Shown here piece after piece: positions 905 through 26,366 of a DNA stretch of 64,000 nt. This stretch comes from Deltaproteobacteria bacterium (lineage in GTDB: Bacteria; JAGRBM01; JAHCIT01): assembly GCA_026129095.1 (NCBI GenBank), contig JAHCIT010000007.1:62001-126000 (forward strand), given 5' to 3'. The notes under the pieces are model-generated. The model had not been told where the DNA came from, searched no databases, and saw only the letters and a list, made by a program, of their open reading frames with translations. Numbering within the stretch: position 1 is the stretch's first letter; each line of letters opens with the position of its first letter. The position numbers and the translations under genes were made by a program.

Positions 905-1726
905 ATGCCTGAATCCATACCGTTTGCATCCACAGTGGTTCTCCTGAGACCGGGAATGGATGTGTTCCTGATGAAGCGGCACGGCAAAAGCGGCTTCATG
1001 GGCGGGGTGCATGTATTTCCGGGCGGCAAGGTGGATGAGGATGACCGCGCTGCGGACTGGACTGAAGTCATCGGGGCGGCAGCCGTCAGCCCGCTCACCA
1101 CAAAAGTTCCCGGCCTCACTGAAACCGACGCACGGGCACTCATTGTCGCCTCCATACGGGAAACCCTGGAGGAAGCGGGAGTGATTCTGGGCGGACCGGC
1201 TCCGACGGGACTGGAGGCAGTCCAGCAGAAACTGAACGCCAGCGAAATGCGGTTCCTGGACTGGGTACGCGAGACAAATGTCCGCCTCGACACTGATCGA
1301 CTGGCCTTTTTCGACCACTGGATCACACCACCCATTGAAAAAAAACGGTTCGATACATTCTTCTTCGCCGCTGCCATCCCTGAAGGCCAGACGGCGACAT
1401 CGGTCAGCCGGGAAACCACCGAAGGAGTCTGGATGCAGCCAGCCGAGGCCGTGGACCGCTATCGCGCCGGAGAGATCACGCTGGCACCCCCCACCTGCAC
1501 GACACTGCTGAGACTCTCCAGGTTCCGTGACCCCGGCGAGGCCATTGAAAGCCTCCGCCGCCGCCCCGTCGCCACCATGCTCCCCAAGGTATCGCAGGAA
1601 AATGGCCAGATGATTCTCATGCTGCCGGGCCACCCCGGCTATGGCCCACATGAAGGCGAACTGGATCCCGAAGGGCCATCCTGCGTCCGCATGAACGGCG
1701 GGAAGTGGTTCCCGGAAACCCGATGA
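905..1726 (+). CDS. Nudix hydrolase, NUDT19-like (large-insert type)
   Basis: This 273-residue protein starts VVLLRPGMDVFLMKRH, the usual first Nudix strands, followed by FPGGKVDEDD at residues 38-47. The Nudix box is split: the glycine-rich half is at residue 40, and the RETLEEAGV half is at residues 85-93, with about 35 residues between them. That spacing is typical of the NUDT7/NUDT19-like group, which cleaves CoA esters or nucleoside diphosphate derivatives, releasing products such as 3',5'-ADP and phosphopantetheine. Glu86, Glu89 and Glu90 would bind magnesium. Substrate is inferred only from the architecture. A GGAGATAC ribosome site lies before the ATG. Its TGA overlaps the ATG of the next Nudix gene (ATGA), implying translational coupling. 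Confidence 0.85.
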   Translation: MPESIPFASTVVLLRPGMDVFLMKRHGKSGFMGGVHVFPGGKVDEDDRAADWTEVIGAAAVSPLTTKVPGLTETDARALIVASIRETLEEAGVILGGPAPTGLEAVQQKLNASEMRFLDWVRETNVRLDTDRLAFFDHWITPPIEKKRFDTFFFAAAIPEGQTATSVSRETTEGVWMQPAEAVDRYRAGEITLAPPTCTTLLRLSRFRDPGEAIESLRRRPVATMLPKVSQENGQMILMLPGHPGYGPHEGELDPEGPSCVRMNGGKWFPETR

Positions 1727-2376
1727 AGCTCCAAAAACTCCGGGTGGCACGGAAACCCCATCCGCTCACAAGGCCCGGTTCCTTTTTCACCGTGGAAGGC
1801 TACCGCCTCGTGAACGACTACGGCGGCGGCAAGCGGTCGAAAAGTTATAATTGCGAAAGCGTCCACCGGCGGGGGACCGACGGTGTCGCGATTCTTATCT
1901 ATCGCCGGGGCCGCCGTGGTCAGACCGAAATTCTCCTCAAGGAATGCATCCGGCCGCCAATACTGCTTCGCGCCCCGCGCGTTAGGAAGAACCGACCCAA
2001 TCCCCCGCTCCTTCTGGAAATTGTGGCTGGCTCAAGGGAACCGGGCGACCAGACACAAACAGATCTGAAAAAGCGGGCCGCCGCCGAAATTCTCGAAGAG
2101 GCAGGCATACGGGTAAAGCCGGCGCTGGTTATGCCTATGGGGTTACCGGTTTTCACATCTCCCGGCGGCCTCTCCGAGGAAGTCCACATCTTCCAGTGCG
2201 ATGTGACGGGTCTTCCTCAATCGGGAGCGCAAATGCACGGTGCCCATCCGCTCGAACTCCACGCCCCACTACACTGGATTCCCCTGGAAACCGGACTCCA
2301 GTGGCTCAGGTCCGGAAAAGTCACCGACGCCAAGACCGAAATTGCAATCAGACGATTTGTGGAATGGGCGAGGTAA
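1723..2376 (+). CDS. Nudix hydrolase, ADP-ribose pyrophosphatase-like
   Basis: The protein has 217 residues from the ATG at 1723, chosen because it overlaps the previous stop as ATGA; a GTG at 1705 is the alternative. The central part carries LLLEIVAGSREPGD (residues 97-109) and AEILEEAGI (121-129), the two halves of a Nudix box. Glu122, Glu125 and Glu126 are in place, but the usual Arg before the first Glu is Ala121. The length, the N-terminal strands and the EIVAG stretch resemble ADP-ribose/nucleoside-diphosphate-sugar pyrophosphatases, which hydrolyse X-diphosphate-Y compounds. The pairing with a second, distantly related Nudix gene suggests the two act on related metabolites. The exact substrate cannot be read from the sequence. 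Confidence 0.82.
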   Translation: MKLQKLRVARKPHPLTRPGSFFTVEGYRLVNDYGGGKRSKSYNCESVHRRGTDGVAILIYRRGRRGQTEILLKECIRPPILLRAPRVRKNRPNPPLLLEIVAGSREPGDQTQTDLKKRAAAEILEEAGIRVKPALVMPMGLPVFTSPGGLSEEVHIFQCDVTGLPQSGAQMHGAHPLELHAPLHWIPLETGLQWLRSGKVTDAKTEIAIRRFVEWAR

Positions 2377-2420: not shown

Positions 2421-4340
2421 ATGGACCTGATCGTCGGGATGTTCCGGCTACTCCGAACACCGTCGGCTTGGCTGTTGGCGGCAGCCTTGGGGCTTACTGC
2501 CCATGCGATTCGCTTCAATCCGGCATCCGGGTTTGTCACCGGCATTGACAACAATCACCAGATTGCCATTCTCGAATGGTTCTACCGGTCGGTCGCCCTC
2601 AGTGCCGGTCCGCTTCACTCGCCCGACTTCTACTATCCTGAACCGGGGATGCTCCTGACCTCGGAAGTCCCGGTGGTGCAGGGACTGGTTTACACAGCCC
2701 TGCGGACTGCAGGCGCCAACAATTTTCTTGCGTTCAATCTGGCACTTGCATTGCTGCTGTACGGAACAATGGCCGCCGCCTATGCGGCCTTCCGCTACGA
2801 GCGGTTTTCCCCCGAAGCATCAATTATCGCGGCGATATTCTATGCGAATTACGATGCCTGGCTGGTCTATCTTCCGGGGTCCATGTGGTATGGAGGCGGA
2901 TTTGGTCTGCCGCTCGCCTGGATGGGTCTGACCTGTTACCGGCGAGGCGACCACCGCGGAGCGTGGTGGCTCGCCGCATCTCTGGTAGTCCAGTTCCTTG
3001 CAAGCATGACGCTGGCCATGGCGGCCCTTCTGCTTGCCGGCACCAGGGCAGTTTCAGACCCGTATTTGCGCCGCCGTTTCCCGGCATTTTGCGCCGCCTG
3101 CATCCCGGTCGCCTGGTGCGGGCTCGCTTATGCCAACGCAGCCAGCCAACTGGCGCCATACCCTGCAAGGCTCGGCCTTGGCTTTCTCCTTTCCCAGCAG
3201 TTCTTCTACCGGCTCGATTTGTCCAATTTCGTCCCGTGGATTGGCGACTGCTTCGCCTCCGGGTTCAGTCACTTCATTCGCTGGCCCAGTTCCCACGATG
3301 CCTTCTCACCGTTCCTTATTCTCTGGACGGCATTTGCATCCATCGCGTGCTGGCAACACCGGACAAGCCGGCAAGCGACCAGCCATACGCTGCGAGTAAC
3401 AGCCGTAGCCCTAGCCTGCCTGATCGCATTATCTGTGACCGTGCTGATACACTGGAAGCTGTCTGCACAGTTTGGCCTCCCGATCTGGTTCTGGATTGCG
3501 ACGTTTTGTTTCTGGACCGGCATTCTCTGGACTAGCAAGCGGCTAACAGCTGCGGCGACAACCGGTCCTGCCAGTGAGCTTCTTACACTGAACACAATAA
3601 TGGGACTGTCGTTTCTCACAGCATTGGGCCCAGTGATTTTCGTGTCGGGTGCGCCGGTCGCAGCCGGACCGGCTGCATTCCTTGATCTTGTGGTTCCGGG
3701 CTTTGCCCAGATGCGTGTCACAGCGCGCACATTGCTGGCCGGCGGCTTTGCCCTGTGCATGTTGCTGGCGATGGCCGTGCACAGGTTCTTGTCCCATCGT
3801 GACTGGGCCAAAACAGTCGCCACACTCTTGGCCACCGGGCAACTGCTCATGGTTACCCACCGGCTACCATGGCCTGACCCTGCTGGCCGGACGACTGATA
3901 TTCGTATTCATGCAGAAGCCTGCCCAAGCTGCTCCGATATCGCACTCGGCACCGTACCGCTTCCGTACCAATGGATACTGGCGCACGGGAAAGCCCCACT
4001 GCTGGAACTTCCCGCCAGCCAAGGATTCGTGGATGATCCTGATCTCAACCATGACACCATCTACCTGTTTTACTGGCTTCTTGATGGAATACCCCGGCTC
4101 AATGGTGTCACTTCAAAAGCGCCTCTGTCTTACCGGCGTTTCGCTGAACAACTGGGCCATTTCCCAGACACCACGACCCTCTCCAGTATCCGCGAACGTG
4201 GCGCACGCTGGCTGGTCGTTCATGGAGACCGGTATCCACTGAATGAATGGAAACGGATTCAGGCCGCACTCGATCCGCCGCCTGAAGGGCTCCGCGTGGA
4301 ACAAAAATGGGGACCGGTCTGGCTCTTTCGGGTAGATTAG
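2421..4340 (+). CDS. Large polytopic membrane protein, possible GT-C-fold glycosyltransferase
   Basis: This 639-residue protein has roughly a dozen hydrophobic helices spread over residues 1-480 and a soluble C-terminal region. An acidic/polar loop after the first helix (GIDNNHQIAILEWFY, residues 40-54) sits where GT-C enzymes place their catalytic aspartate. The C-terminal part (around residues 520-639) contains PLLELPASQGFVDD and a final WLVVHGDRYP segment, as seen in uncharacterised membrane proteins related to dolichyl-phosphate-mannose-type transferases. The function is inferred from topology only. The stop codon overlaps by four bases with the stop of the convergent gene at 4337-4732. 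It follows the Nudix pair by 44 bases and may be cotranscribed with it. Confidence 0.65.
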   Translation: MDLIVGMFRLLRTPSAWLLAAALGLTAHAIRFNPASGFVTGIDNNHQIAILEWFYRSVALSAGPLHSPDFYYPEPGMLLTSEVPVVQGLVYTALRTAGANNFLAFNLALALLLYGTMAAAYAAFRYERFSPEASIIAAIFYANYDAWLVYLPGSMWYGGGFGLPLAWMGLTCYRRGDHRGAWWLAASLVVQFLASMTLAMAALLLAGTRAVSDPYLRRRFPAFCAACIPVAWCGLAYANAASQLAPYPARLGLGFLLSQQFFYRLDLSNFVPWIGDCFASGFSHFIRWPSSHDAFSPFLILWTAFASIACWQHRTSRQATSHTLRVTAVALACLIALSVTVLIHWKLSAQFGLPIWFWIATFCFWTGILWTSKRLTAAATTGPASELLTLNTIMGLSFLTALGPVIFVSGAPVAAGPAAFLDLVVPGFAQMRVTARTLLAGGFALCMLLAMAVHRFLSHRDWAKTVATLLATGQLLMVTHRLPWPDPAGRTTDIRIHAEACPSCSDIALGTVPLPYQWILAHGKAPLLELPASQGFVDDPDLNHDTIYLFYWLLDGIPRLNGVTSKAPLSYRRFAEQLGHFPDTTTLSSIRERGARWLVVHGDRYPLNEWKRIQAALDPPPEGLRVEQKWGPVWLFRVD

Positions 4341-4732
4341 CCGTTGCCAGGACCGGGGCCGAGCCGCCGTTCCAGCGCTTCGATCCGCTCCAGAATCCGC
4401 GTCATAACGGCCCGATCAAGGCGAGGTTCCTGAAAAACATTACGGATATCCTTGATCGTACGCTGAAGCTCCAGCGCGTCTTCCTCGAACCGGACGACGT
4501 GACGGGCCGTAAGATCGTTCTGGTTCATGACGTGCCGGAGCTGGCCGAGCACATCGTCGCGGATTCCTTCGGTAGTGGTGTGATATTTTTCAAGCCGCTG
4601 CTCAACCCCATCCAGCCGGGCGTTAAGGCGCGTCTCGGCCCGGCCGATACGGGAGATCGCCCACAATGCCGCTCCCGCTGCCACAACCGACATGGCCCCA
4701 ACCGACGCCCCCAGCAGAAATCCAGCCTCCAT
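4337..4732 (-). CDS. Membrane-anchored coiled-coil protein, companion of radical SAM enzyme (copy 2)
   Basis: This 131-residue protein has one N-terminal transmembrane helix (residues 4-26), then the charged linker AISRIGRAETRLNARLDGVEQRLE and a long heptad-patterned helix ending in ERIEALERRLG. It is a close paralogue of the preceding gene product (4741-5175): the two align along their whole length apart from a 13-residue insertion in the other copy. Both share the ISR-[IV]-GR-x-ET-R linker with the radical SAM protein upstream. The start is 8 bases after the previous stop, so the three genes are one operon. The function is unknown. A membrane scaffold or hetero-oligomer partner of the enzyme is my inference. 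The stop overlaps that of the convergent membrane-protein gene. Confidence 0.8.
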   Translation of the reverse strand: MEAGFLLGASVGAMSVVAAGAALWAISRIGRAETRLNARLDGVEQRLEKYHTTTEGIRDDVLGQLRHVMNQNDLTARHVVRFEEDALELQRTIKDIRNVFQEPRLDRAVMTRILERIEALERRLGPGPGNG

Positions 4733-4740
4733 TTGTTTCC

Positions 4741-5175
4741 CTATCGTTCCGGAGAATGGTCATCCGGGTCGAGACGCCGCTCAATCACTTCAATGCGCTC
4801 AAGAATCCGGTTCATAACAGCCCTATCCAGACGGGGTTCCTGGAACCCATTGCGTACATCCTTGATCGTGCGTTGCAGGGCTACCACGTTTTCCTCGAAT
4901 CTTGTGACGTGCCGCAGAGTCTCTTCTTCCAGCTGGCTGATCCGACCGACAATCAGGTCATTCTGACCCATAACATGGCGAAGCTGGCCAAATACATCAT
5001 CGCGAATACCCTCGGTCGTGGTGTGATACCTTTCGAGCCGCTGTTCGACACCATCCAACCGGGCATTCAGACGTGTTTCAGCCCTGCCGATCCGGGAGAT
5101 CGCCCACAGTGCCGCTCCTGCTGCCGCGGCAGCGAGCGAAACCAGAACGATGAATATCATCGTGGCCAGGCTCAT
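4741..5175 (-). CDS. Membrane-anchored coiled-coil protein, companion of radical SAM enzyme (copy 1)
   Basis: The protein has 144 residues from the ATG at 5175-5173, chosen because it overlaps the radical SAM stop as ATGA; an in-frame start at 5217 lies inside that gene and is unlikely. A transmembrane helix (residues 3-26, alanine-rich) is followed by ISRIGRAETRLNARLDGVEQ and a helical region with heptads (residues 35-138). Compared with copy 2 it carries an extra 13 residues (around IVGRISQLEEETL) in the middle of the helix. It has no enzymatic motif. Translational coupling to the radical SAM gene and the shared membrane-linker module suggest it assembles with that enzyme at the inner membrane. 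This is inference from arrangement and sequence similarity. Confidence 0.82.
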   Translation of the reverse strand: MSLATMIFIVLVSLAAAAAGAALWAISRIGRAETRLNARLDGVEQRLERYHTTTEGIRDDVFGQLRHVMGQNDLIVGRISQLEEETLRHVTRFEENVVALQRTIKDVRNGFQEPRLDRAVMNRILERIEVIERRLDPDDHSPER

Positions 5176-6608
5176 ACGCGCCCCCGGAAAATACACACAG
5201 TCGGCGCAGTGAGACACGGGTCAGCAAATACCCGGTCCAGCATCTGCTGGCGGACCTGGATCGCTTTTGGTGAATTCCACACCGTCTCGAATGGATCACG
5301 CGAGAGGTCCCCGATATATTCGCTCAGTTCGTCATGGTAGTAACACATACGAACCTGCCCATCCTCGGCCACCACCGCTCTGGACCACGGAACCATGCAT
5401 TTCTCCGGGTGCTGGTGGCGCTCGTTCATATGGGCGGAGATTACCTTCTGTTCATCAGTCAACTGCTTTGAGAGAAACCCCTGCCCCACGAAATTGACAG
5501 GCAGCGAGTAAAGCTTGGCCCGGCGATAGGCCTCAGTCAGCAAACGATCATGTTCGACAGGATCAATTTTCAGCTGGGCTGCATAATCGAATACATATTC
5601 GCCGCCGCCCGGCATCACCCGGCTGGCAGTCCAATCGAAGGTGGGGCCGGGGTTCATGTGAAACAGGTCGACACCGTCCACACCCAGCCGGGCGGCCAGA
5701 TCAATAAACTCGGGCAGTTCAGGCAATGCCTCGCGCGTAATACACATGTTGACTATGAGGGTCGGATACTTCCGTCCCATGCTTTTCTTCAGCTGCTGAA
5801 GATTCCCTATGTTTTCGACAATCTTGGCGAACCCGGGCCCCCGGAGTTTCGCATGTGTTTCGGCGCGGGCAGCATCGAGACTGACATTGATGCAGTCCAC
5901 ACGGCGGCCTTCGATGAGGCGCCGGGCCAGTGGTTCGTCCAGCGTGATGCCATGAGTATTGAACCGGACTTTCGTGGGAGGATCTACCAGCCCTAGCACG
6001 TCATCAAAGTAGCGCGCATAAGTCGGCTCGCCCCCACAATGAAGGTACAGGATGTCCAGGTGCCGGAAGACCGGCACGAGATTCACCAGCACGTTCGGAC
6101 TCATGTCGAATTCATCGTTTTGAGTTCGCTTGTTCCGCTCGCAGATGCCGCATGGGGGATTGATGTTGCAGCGGGTGGTAAGCGCCAGCGTCATTTCTTC
6201 CGGATACGAGGTGACACGCGTGATGCCAGCCTCGAACTCTTCCCGCAACCGGCGCCGGTTCTGTTCAGGAGCGGCCAGGCGGGATTCTGCGCTCACCCCG
6301 ATGCTGCCAGCACGGGTCTGCCAACCGGCAGTTTCATCCAGCTTCTGCTCCAGCTGGTCCAAACGTTCCATCATCTTGGCCAGATGTGGCCGCAGGAAGG
6401 CACCCGGTTCGTCTGGTCGTGTGCCGGTTTCCGCCGCCACTGAACTACCAGTATGATTCAGGGATTCCCTAACCTGCTGATGGACCTGATCGAACCGGTC
6501 GTGCATCCGGGTTTCAAACCGCCCCACGCGTGAAATGATGAACAGCGCGGTCCCCAGGATCAGGAGCACCAGTCCGAAACCGGCAGTAACGATCAGCAAC
6601 TCGTTCAT
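5172..6608 (-). CDS. Membrane-anchored radical SAM/SPASM-domain protein
   Basis: The protein has 478 residues from the ATG at 6608. A transmembrane helix (residues 5-25) leads into ISRVGRFETRM and a coiled-coil stretch to about residue 95. The radical SAM domain starts at TTRCNINPPCGIC, with cluster cysteines 147, 153 and 156 in a CX5CX2C pattern, unlike the usual CX3CX2C. The SAM-binding GGEP motif is at 192-195. The C-terminal SPASM/twitch region has Cys404 (KCMVPW), Cys422 (DGQVRMC), Cys465 and Cys472, enough for an auxiliary iron-sulfur cluster. Such enzymes modify peptides, proteins or small molecules by radical chemistry. The substrate here is unknown, and no short precursor-peptide gene is visible nearby. 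It is operonic with the two coiled-coil companions. Confidence 0.88.
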   Translation of the reverse strand: MNELLIVTAGFGLVLLILGTALFIISRVGRFETRMHDRFDQVHQQVRESLNHTGSSVAAETGTRPDEPGAFLRPHLAKMMERLDQLEQKLDETAGWQTRAGSIGVSAESRLAAPEQNRRRLREEFEAGITRVTSYPEEMTLALTTRCNINPPCGICERNKRTQNDEFDMSPNVLVNLVPVFRHLDILYLHCGGEPTYARYFDDVLGLVDPPTKVRFNTHGITLDEPLARRLIEGRRVDCINVSLDAARAETHAKLRGPGFAKIVENIGNLQQLKKSMGRKYPTLIVNMCITREALPELPEFIDLAARLGVDGVDLFHMNPGPTFDWTASRVMPGGGEYVFDYAAQLKIDPVEHDRLLTEAYRRAKLYSLPVNFVGQGFLSKQLTDEQKVISAHMNERHQHPEKCMVPWSRAVVAEDGQVRMCYYHDELSEYIGDLSRDPFETVWNSPKAIQVRQQMLDRVFADPCLTAPTVCIFRGRV

Positions 6609-6692: not shown

Positions 6693-7193
6693 TCAGGGGG
6701 TCGAAGCGCCTTCGGGACTGTCCTGGCTAGTAGCATTCGCGGCCTTTTCCGCTGCCTGGGCGAACTCCTCCGCCGTGCCGCTCAACGAGCGGATAAAGTG
6801 GATGATCGACCATGTCTCCCGGGGCCGCAAATGCTTCCAAGAGGGCATCCCCTTCATGGGACGGCCCATCTGGATCGTGAGATAAAGTTCCGTGTCGGAT
6901 CTCGATCGGCTCCACTCCGGCCGGTTGAAGTGTGGAGCCGTCGGCCGCATGGCGATCGTCGGGCCAGGTGCTCCAGTGGCGCTGTGGCAGGCCATGCACG
7001 CAAGCTGATACGTTTTCTTCCCGGCATCGAGGCTTTCCTGCGTAAGGGGCACGGGATTGTAGCTGCTGCCCAATCCCTGCGATGGAACTCCATGCTCCGC
7101 AGCATCCCCCGAAGCTAAAGGCTCAGGGCGAGGCTGGCAGGCGAAGAAAAGGGAAGCCGCAATCAAGAAACCAAGAGAGGGGAACCGGTTCAT
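6693..7193 (-). CDS. Lipoprotein c-type cytochrome (class I, monoheme)
   Basis: This 166-residue protein has a signal peptide ending in the lipobox LFFAC (Cys19), so it should be lipid-anchored on the periplasmic side of a membrane. The haem-binding CMACH motif is at residues 66-70. A GRPMKGMPSW segment after residue 109 supplies the probable axial methionine. The closing helix ETWSIIHFIRSL is typical of class I cytochrome c. It probably carries electrons in the periplasm. It lies 84 bases upstream of the radical SAM gene on the same strand. That arrangement could mean cotranscription, but the gap is too wide to be sure. Confidence 0.88.
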   Translation of the reverse strand: MNRFPSLGFLIAASLFFACQPRPEPLASGDAAEHGVPSQGLGSSYNPVPLTQESLDAGKKTYQLACMACHSATGAPGPTIAMRPTAPHFNRPEWSRSRSDTELYLTIQMGRPMKGMPSWKHLRPRETWSIIHFIRSLSGTAEEFAQAAEKAANATSQDSPEGASTP

Positions 7194-24033: not shown

Positions 24034-26366
24034 AACCGCTGAATACACTGATCCTTGTACTGGCCGTTTTCTGGCTGTTCGCCCCGGCCTTCGTGAACGG
24101 CGAAACCCTCTGGTCGCGGGATATCGCCGTCAACCACCTGCCGAATCTCGGCTACTGGATGCACCGGGTAGCCGGGGGAGAACTTCCCCACTGGAACCCC
24201 TATTCCGGAGGCGGCATGCCCTATGCCGCTGACCCGGTGCAGGGGACATTCTACCCGCCAAAGCTGCTCATCCTGGCGACGAGCGACCCCGTAACCGCCT
24301 ACAACTGGATCATTGCGCTGCACATGCTGGTTGCGGCGCTGGGCCTTGAACGGCTCCTTCGGGGTGCCGGTCTTGGCGCATTCGGAGCACTGGCCGGGGC
24401 GCTCATCTTCCTGTTCAGCGGGCCTATGGCAGCCGATACCCGGCAAACCCAGTTCATGTTCGCCCTTGCCTGGATGCCCTGGATGCTGGATGCTGCCCGG
24501 TGCCATCTTGCGGCCGGCGACTGCCTTTCGGGCCCGCTGCTTTCTGTATACGGCGGCCTGATACTCCTGGCTGGCGAACCGCAAACTTTCCTTGTCGCGT
24601 GGGGCACCGTGCTCCTTTACTGGTTCTGTACACCCGCTCCTATAGAACCGGGATCTCCGCGGAAAACACTCGCCACCAGCATTGGCAGCGCAGCCCTGTG
24701 GGGATCGCTCGGTATTGGGCTCAGCCTCATCCAGTGGGTTCCGGCCTGGATCATCGCGCAGGAGTCATCCCGTGCGACAGCGGGACTTGGCTATGCGGCG
24801 GCCGCCGAATGCTCCTTCCATCCGGTACGGCTCATGGAACTGTTCCTGCCACAGGTATTCGGCAGCGACATACGGGAGATGACCGCCTGGAGTCCGAAAT
24901 TCTCCTGCAGCGAGCAGATGCCGGTGTTCTATTTCCATTCGTTGTACACCGGCATTGCTACCCTTGCTCTCCTGCCGCTGGTATTCGTGAAAACACGCGA
25001 TGCGCGGCCGGTGGCCGTCCTCAAAACTTTAGCCCTCTGGCTCACGGGGCTGTCACTGGTGATCTCGATGGGACCATCCAGTCCCATTGATCTCTACCGT
25101 ATCCTTTACGACTGGTTGCCATCATGGAACCGGCTCCGGTTCCCGGAGCGGCTACTCCCATGGACGGCACTGGGGTTATCGGTCCTCGCAGCCATCGCCG
25201 CGAACCGATGGGAGACATCGCTCCGACTTCGGGACAGGCGGCGGTGGTACCCGGCTGTGGCTGCGGCAATTCTTCTGGCAATCATTGTTCTGCCTCCCTG
25301 GACGGCGATTTTCTCCAAACTGGACCCCCGTGCCTTCACATGGGCCGAGCCGGTGATCCTCCATGCGGCTAGAGACGGCCTCGCCGCTGCCCTCCTCTCC
25401 CTCGCAGTGTTTGTGATCACCGCCTTACGCTGGCCCGGCACGGCGGGCTTGCTGCTACCGGTTCTGCTGTTCATGGACGCTGGCAAACAGGCGGGGCGGA
25501 CGATGGACTTCTGGCCCGACCCGGCGTTCATCCGGACCGAGCCGGAACTCGCCTCTCATCTCCGCATCCTGAACAGTTCCGGCCCGGCACCGCTCCGGTA
25601 CGGTCCTCCCGGTGTACTGGTTACCCCTGCCAACCAGTATCGGGTGGCCGATCCGGTCACTCTGGCCGCCGCCAAGAACGCTGCCCTCGCCATCGACCAG
25701 GGGATTCTGTACCAGGTATCGGCCACCGCCACCGGCAACACACTGAAGTCGGCACGGCTGGAACTCGCCGAGCATTTTCTGGATCCTGTCCTTTACGAAC
25801 GGCTCCACGGGGCGTCGGTCATCGTCGCCGACCGGCAGTTTCCGCTGGAGAGCAAACAGTTCCACGCCGTTCATGAAACCCCGCAGGTAACAGTCTACCG
25901 GAACGGCGGGAACTCTTCCCGCGTGATCTGTCCCAGCTGGTGGGACAGCCTTCCCGATAACGAGGGAACTGTGCGGTTCATGGCTACCCCCGCCAGCCAG
26001 TTCGATCCCGACACAATGGCCGTCGGTCCGTTTGCCTCGGCCGGCACACGGGACACGCCAGCCGTAACCTGCCGTCTCGTCTCCTGGTCGGAGGAGCGGT
26101 ACGAGATAGAGGTGACACAAACTGACGATGCGCCGGTTGTCCTGCGTGAACTGTTTACCTCCGGATGGACGGCAAGGCTCGAAAATGTCCGCCCGCTCGA
26201 CATCCTGCCTGCCAACCATCTCCACCAGGCGGTGGTGGCTGGCCCCGGTAAGCACCGGATCATTTTTGAATACCGGACGCCGGGGCTTCTGGCGGGGGCC
26301 GCCGGAACGCTACTATCGCTCGTTCTCTTGGGACTGCTTGCCGTCCGACCGCGCCAGACGCACTGA
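24030..26366 (+). CDS. YfhO-like polytopic membrane protein with CTG start
   Basis: This is a 778-residue membrane protein with about a dozen helices and a soluble C-terminal domain. The loop LPHWNPYSGGGMPYAADPVQGTFYPPKLL near residues 55-85 is the signature of the YfhO family, which in Gram-positives is linked to glycosylation of cell-envelope polymers. I choose the CTG at 24030 because AAAGGAG lies 8 bases upstream and because residues 4-22 then complete the first transmembrane helix (NTLILVLAVFWLFAPAFV); the next in-frame start is a GTG at 24093, which would remove that helix. CTG is rare, so this needs care. It overlaps the CoA-transferase gene. Its role is probably sugar or lipid transfer, from family only. 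Confidence 0.72.
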   Translation: MKPLNTLILVLAVFWLFAPAFVNGETLWSRDIAVNHLPNLGYWMHRVAGGELPHWNPYSGGGMPYAADPVQGTFYPPKLLILATSDPVTAYNWIIALHMLVAALGLERLLRGAGLGAFGALAGALIFLFSGPMAADTRQTQFMFALAWMPWMLDAARCHLAAGDCLSGPLLSVYGGLILLAGEPQTFLVAWGTVLLYWFCTPAPIEPGSPRKTLATSIGSAALWGSLGIGLSLIQWVPAWIIAQESSRATAGLGYAAAAECSFHPVRLMELFLPQVFGSDIREMTAWSPKFSCSEQMPVFYFHSLYTGIATLALLPLVFVKTRDARPVAVLKTLALWLTGLSLVISMGPSSPIDLYRILYDWLPSWNRLRFPERLLPWTALGLSVLAAIAANRWETSLRLRDRRRWYPAVAAAILLAIIVLPPWTAIFSKLDPRAFTWAEPVILHAARDGLAAALLSLAVFVITALRWPGTAGLLLPVLLFMDAGKQAGRTMDFWPDPAFIRTEPELASHLRILNSSGPAPLRYGPPGVLVTPANQYRVADPVTLAAAKNAALAIDQGILYQVSATATGNTLKSARLELAEHFLDPVLYERLHGASVIVADRQFPLESKQFHAVHETPQVTVYRNGGNSSRVICPSWWDSLPDNEGTVRFMATPASQFDPDTMAVGPFASAGTRDTPAVTCRLVSWSEERYEIEVTQTDDAPVVLRELFTSGWTARLENVRPLDILPANHLHQAVVAGPGKHRIIFEYRTPGLLAGAAGTLLSLVLLGLLAVRPRQTH

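Follow-up and report, generated by a model that had tools for sequence, protein, structure and literature searches.

The window, the whole 64,000-nucleotide stretch of DNA analysed here, carries three adjacent genes on the minus strand that encode a radical SAM enzyme and two small membrane proteins. Translation reconfirms the reading frames, protein lengths and gene junctions that the initial annotation had given for this trio. A cytochrome gene precedes them on the same strand:

6693..7193, minus strand: c-type cytochrome with a lipoprotein-like signal (PF13442, 3.7e-10; PF00034, 7.9e-9), separated from the enzyme gene downstream by 84 bp
5172..6608, minus strand: radical SAM enzyme, 478 aa, with a transmembrane (TM) helix, coiled coil, radical SAM barrel and Twitch-type C-terminal domain (translation, SPASM PF13186, TIGR04317, AlphaFold2, Foldseek)
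4741..5175, minus strand: small membrane coiled-coil protein 1, 144 aa (translation, AlphaFold2 helices)
4337..4732, minus strand: small membrane coiled-coil protein 2, 131 aa, a paralogue of small protein 1 with 74% identity (translation)

The enzyme gene and the gene for small protein 1 share an ATGA in which start and stop codons overlap, an arrangement that suggests translational coupling. Only eight bases (4733-4740) separate the genes of the two small proteins. The order and coupling of the three genes fit a joint product, and the cytochrome c gene may be the first gene of an operon with four genes in all. A promoter scan of the locus finds no promoter-like site, and three terminator-like sites are present, a number that shuffled sequences match or exceed. 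Beyond the cytochrome gene, on the side away from the enzyme, lies a divergent AMP-ligase gene. At the other end, a gene for a 639-aa membrane protein (2421-4340, plus strand) stands tail to tail with the gene for small protein 2.

Three parts of the enzyme are central to its classification and to its relationship with the small proteins:

6465..6599, minus strand: TM helix, residues 4-22, followed by the linker/coil common to the three proteins, up to residue 48 (hydropathy, shuffle test, alignment, predicted helix 2-52)
6141..6170, minus strand: CX5CX2C motif CNINPPCGIC, residues 147-156, predicted to bind the SAM-associated cluster (alignment with the CX3CX2C motif of relatives)
5193..5399, minus strand: Twitch-type domain, C404-X12-G-X4-C422 ... 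C465-X6-C472 (motif scan, conserved columns)

The radical SAM fold proposed in the initial annotation is well supported. The enzyme has the partial (beta/alpha)6 barrel of the superfamily together with its SAM-binding GGEP motif (G192-P195), which is invariant among relatives. AlphaFold2, working from an alignment of 15 distant relatives, predicts this barrel with pLDDT values of ~84-98 across most of residues 170-320. Ahead of it, the model places a helix at residues 2-52, a stretch of low confidence around 49-65, and further helices at 70-99 and 113-134. The solved folds ranked highest by Foldseek are SuiB, DesII, SkfB, anSME, CteB and BlsE (E ~1e-11), with viperin and MoaA lower in the list. 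The Pfam radical SAM model PF04055 does not match the enzyme.

The cluster motif itself departs from the canonical three-cysteine CX3CX2C of the superfamily. C147, C153 and C156 align with the cluster cysteines of relatives, all of which (42 of 42 checked) carry CX3CX2C, so that the enzyme alone among them has CX5CX2C. The same spacing occurs in HcgA, an enzyme of [Fe]-hydrogenase cofactor synthesis (PMC10100467), and this precedent makes CX5CX2C compatible with a radical SAM enzyme. HcgA itself is similar to HydE/HydG and biotin synthase (PMC10100467), and no sequence match between it and the enzyme is seen; the shared motif is a likeness, not kinship. Across 386 genomes, the pattern CN-hydrophobic-x-PPCxxC has two other matches in DNA, neither of them inside a radical SAM gene. 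Since the cluster cysteines and the GGEP motif are retained, the enzyme is probably active.

The SPASM assignment in the initial annotation requires revision. SPASM domains hold two auxiliary clusters and follow a seven-cysteine pattern, CX9-15GX4C - CX2CX5CX3C - C, whereas Twitch domains hold one and combine CX9-15GX4C with further cysteine ligands (PMC6231123). Past the barrel, the enzyme has only C404, C422, C465 and C472, the first three invariant and the last nearly so in an alignment of relatives. This is the Twitch pattern, from which a single auxiliary cluster is predicted, and the seven-cysteine SPASM pattern is absent. Pfam SPASM (PF13186) nonetheless matches the enzyme with an E-value of 3.7e-9. 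As judged from its cysteine motifs, the protein is better named a radical SAM/Twitch-type enzyme with CX5CX2C. The best NCBIfam families over the barrel are TIGR04317, a tungsten oxidoreductase maturase (1.4e-25), and TIGR04311, Geo_metal radical SAM (3.6e-18), yet the matches fall far below both cut-offs (90 bits against 380 and 66 bits against 400, respectively). The genome lacks aldehyde ferredoxin oxidoreductase (AOR, PF01314), and this absence, together with the sub-cut-off score of 90 bits, speaks against the tungsten oxidoreductase maturase described by TIGR04317. The signs of a RiPP maturase with precursor genes are likewise missing: a TM helix and coil take the place of an RRE, and each small protein is a predicted helical rod that has neither cysteines nor a variable core.

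All three proteins share an N-terminal membrane module, as originally proposed. In each, a single strongly hydrophobic segment lies at the N-terminus, and nothing else in the sequence rises above 1.6 on the Kyte-Doolittle scale over 19 residues. When the enzyme segment GTALFIISRVGRFETRMHDRFDQVHQQ is compared with the corresponding segment GAALWAISRIGRAETRLNARLDGVEQR of the small proteins, the alignments reach scores of 79 and 76, where shuffled sequences average ~31 and not one in 5000 equals them. The linker without the TM helix still outscores all 5000 shuffles in both comparisons. The TM helix leads into a stalk with the signature ISR-[IV]-GR-x-ET-R followed by heptads, near-identical across the three proteins. 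Besides the start methionine and T54, the invariant positions (small protein 1 numbering) are G20, A22, L23, I26, S27, R28, G30, R31, E33, T34, R35, R39, D41, V43 and Q45. In a search of the whole 3.67-Mb genome, copies of the module are found only in these three adjacent genes. The enzyme's copy is short, with about 30-36 aligned residues (residues 13-49), and its linker diverges beyond that point. Its similarity to the small-protein module covers ~30 residues at 42-43% identity, with an E-value of ~0.002 for the one genome searched. Between the second helix of the enzyme and the final part of the small proteins there is a weak, suggestive similarity, equalled by 35 and 75 of 5000 shuffles.

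The distribution of basic residues around the helix, with no lysine or arginine ahead of it and four after it within residues 23-45, predicts a cytoplasmic location for the C-terminal parts according to the positive-inside rule. A cytoplasmic C-terminus is also expected because an enzyme that uses SAM and an iron-sulphur cluster must work in that compartment.

Comparison of the two small proteins indicates where selection has acted. Three segments stand out:

4954..5124, minus strand: residues 18-74 of small protein 1, under extreme constraint (dN 0.03, dS ~2.25 versus small protein 2)
4511..4681, minus strand: residues 18-74 of small protein 2, under extreme constraint (dN 0.03, dS ~2.25 versus small protein 1)
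4921..4953, minus strand: hendecad, a segment of 11 residues in small protein 1 that small protein 2 lacks (paralogue alignment)

Although the paralogues are 74% identical, their tails have nothing in common when aligned. Third codon positions account for 70 of the 120 differences between the genes, and this excess argues that the small reading frames are real. Within residues 18-74, differences occur at 31 of 43.5 synonymous sites (~71%) and at 4 of 127.5 nonsynonymous sites (~3%); the dS of ~2.25 is near saturation and is only approximate. Such a combination implies that the duplication is old and that the stalk has been kept almost residue by residue in both copies. Gene conversion would not leave this pattern, since it would have erased the synonymous differences as well. 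dN rises to 0.155 over residues 86-138 and reaches ~1.8 over the first 17 residues, where no constraint is recognisable. These first residues, which include much of the TM helix, vary freely between the small proteins. Because the N-terminal half of the helix is not conserved, the stalk is the constrained element, and constraint of this kind is expected if the two copies have to go on matching shared partners. The initial annotation had named a generic low-complexity membrane segment as the finding that would undo its proposal, an objection that fails given the shuffle tests, the dN/dS values and the uniqueness of the module in the genome.

The small proteins also have features of coiled coils, in agreement with the original description. 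Both show a hydrophobic periodicity close to the heptad value of 3.5, and the 11-residue insertion or deletion keeps the coil in register, as this reading would have it. For small protein 1, AlphaFold2 predicts a helix at residues 3-111 followed by another at 118-135 (two sequences in the alignment, pLDDT 70). Each small protein contains one tryptophan and no cysteine. The stalk also contains a conserved block, YHTTTEG, whose role in a coiled coil is not obvious.

Relatives of the enzyme are distant. The best among 386 genomes from across the domain are 29-30% identical over residues 108-454 and come from open frames of 816-829 residues; those inspected (one, L017, in full) lack the TM/coil module. 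The enzyme profile detects no orthologue in these genomes, in plasmids or in viral contigs. A pattern scan with the enzyme across 84,980 species also returns no orthologue, although it registers only near-exact peptide patterns and distant orthologues could escape it. A second scan, based on the aligned enzyme core with six synthetic rows added to mark positions judged conserved and again restricted to near-exact patterns, yields 20 generic radical SAM enzymes, all from the single pattern SLDAAxxETH. Profiles of the small proteins find no homologue outside this genome at an E-value of 1e-4 among the 386 genomes, and none in plasmids or viral contigs. Small protein 1 has two weak matches elsewhere, with E-values of 0.007-0.009 and internal stops in one of them, which are judged to be chance.

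The initial annotation had proposed checking whether small membrane coiled-coil genes recur beside homologous radical SAM genes. Within the data searched they do not: none of 46 loci of radical SAM relatives has a small TM-plus-coil gene in the flanks examined, many of which span only 1.5 kb, with a filter that passes small protein 1 and narrowly rejects small protein 2. This result does not refute the proposal, because no true orthologue is among the relatives. Two genomes of the phylum were examined. The second, from the same order, gives only a generic radical SAM match (27% identity) and has no homologue of the small proteins, no cytochrome and no convergent 639-aa gene. Since the cytochrome and the 639-aa gene are both missing there, it offers no empty site for comparison. 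Among the data searched, the trio is an orphan of one genome in a phylum that is hardly sampled, and it need not be rare in nature. No description of such a radical SAM layout was found in the open-licence literature.

These observations can be accommodated by a model in which co-assembly with its two paralogous companions keeps the enzyme at the cytoplasmic face of the membrane, an arrangement to which we assign an even chance of being right. Each of the three proteins would enter the membrane through its single N-terminal helix, with its C-terminal end on the cytoplasmic side. Enzyme and small proteins would then pair with one another through their almost identical stalks, giving mixed coiled coils. 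The small proteins, as long single-helix rods, would form a platform that the enzyme joins through its shorter copy of the same stalk. From there the chain would run through a flexible segment, roughly residues 53-69, and additional helices to the catalytic barrel. The catalytic domain might thus be kept beside a substrate associated with the membrane, possibly a lipid-linked molecule or a segment of a membrane protein; nothing but the membrane setting hints at what the substrate is. Counting against co-assembly are the shortness of the enzyme's overlap with the module, the weakness of the similarity between its second helix and the small proteins, and the restriction of the trio to one genome, in which conservation of the association is not demonstrable.

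The main rival treats the module as a membrane address only. Tandem duplication would have given the same anchor to all three proteins, which would share a zone or partner with no mutual contact. The early divergence of the enzyme linker after its short module copy is in keeping with this idea, and neighbouring genes alone are no proof of contact. However, a simple address would not obviously call for extreme constraint over 57 residues that run past the TM helix and take in all of the coil's first part, nor for a conserved stalk below a helix whose N-terminal half is free to vary. We regard an address as a real possibility, but less likely than co-assembly. A more radical objection, that the N-terminal similarity reflects convergence of membrane-anchored basic coiled coils, draws on the modest length, identity and E-value of the match. 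It is highly improbable given that the linker without the TM helix surpasses every shuffle in both comparisons, and that the similar genes are adjacent in one operon with no further match in 3.7 Mb.

Two other explanations concern what the enzyme acts upon. The small proteins could be its substrates, with the stalk uniting enzyme and target in the way that leader peptides meet their recognition domains in RiPP systems. The peptide-modifying enzymes SuiB, SkfB, CteB and anSME are among the nearest solved folds, the enzyme gene is coupled to the candidate substrate genes, and the YHTTTEG block lacks an evident coiled-coil function. Yet the relatives are too broad for fold similarity to predict a substrate, no RiPP recognition domain is seen at the enzyme N-terminus, and the small proteins, with unlike tails, a lone tryptophan each and no cysteine or variable core, make this role unlikely. 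It is very unlikely that the enzyme is a maturase for an enzyme with a metal or tungsten cofactor or acts on the adjoining cytochrome. The TIGR04317 and TIGR04311 matches and the cytochrome gene 84 bp upstream point in this direction, but both scores are far under their cut-offs, the genome has no AOR, and the cytochrome resembles a lipoprotein that is exported, while the enzyme should face the cytoplasm.

Under co-assembly, the full picture would be a novel type of radical SAM membrane complex, with a CX5CX2C Twitch enzyme docked via a copied stalk on two paralogous rods. The enzyme would perform radical chemistry on a substrate embedded in the membrane, and its lineage has no known related system. 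That all of these parts hold together is fairly unlikely. Like the Twitch/SPASM enzymes SkfB, BtrN, MoaA, SuiB and anSME, this enzyme has a partial barrel, GGEP, and CX12GX4C with two later cysteines. It differs from them in having CX5CX2C in place of CX3CX2C, a terminal CX6C, an N-terminal TM helix and coil, companion membrane proteins and no visible RRE. Viperin is a radical SAM enzyme fixed to the face of the ER by an N-terminal helix. It resembles the present enzyme in that an N-terminal extension holds it at a membrane, and its barrel is a Foldseek match, but its helix is amphipathic rather than a TM segment with a coiled coil, and it has no paralogous companions.

Two features of this system are unusual: a membrane stalk common to the enzyme and its paralogous companions, and CX5CX2C in an enzyme of the Twitch/SPASM type. 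The significance of the trio is limited by the absence of a second example. The cluster motif is relevant to the question of how fixed the cluster loop is in this family. Radical SAM enzymes are mostly regarded as soluble, and a membrane platform that arose by copying the enzyme's own anchor would, if the co-assembly model is true, represent a new way to position radical chemistry.

Other genes lie around the membrane-tethered radical SAM enzyme and its two small companion proteins in the window:

905-1726 and 1705-2376, plus strand: two adjacent genes of Nudix-like appearance
2421-4340, plus strand: polytopic membrane protein of 639 residues
6693-7193, minus strand: c-type cytochrome lipoprotein, encoded on the same strand as the enzyme and 84 bp upstream of it

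Within the pair of apparently Nudix-like genes, the Pfam cut-off is reached by the first gene only and not by the second. The 639-residue membrane protein has no Pfam or NCBIfam matches; a paralogue that is 44% identical to it is encoded on a different contig of the same genome (C10, 132377-134170). A second large membrane protein occurs in the window at 24093-26366. The cytochrome lipoprotein has no homologue in the order's other genome.

Plasmids of Brachyspira hyodysenteriae (32-36 kb; matches H1 and H3-H9) encode a radical SAM protein that is 25% identical to the enzyme. At locus L046 (2885-5056), from a Planctomycetia MAG, the enzyme domain of a radical SAM/SPASM-type protein is followed by a long repetitive coiled coil of ENAALKGHA-type repeats.

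The best relatives of the enzyme come from other genomes, at locus L017, where the open frame spans 816 residues, and at locus L064, where it spans 829. In the L017 frame, a long N-terminal half precedes an intact radical SAM domain, and this half may represent a first radical SAM unit that has degenerated.
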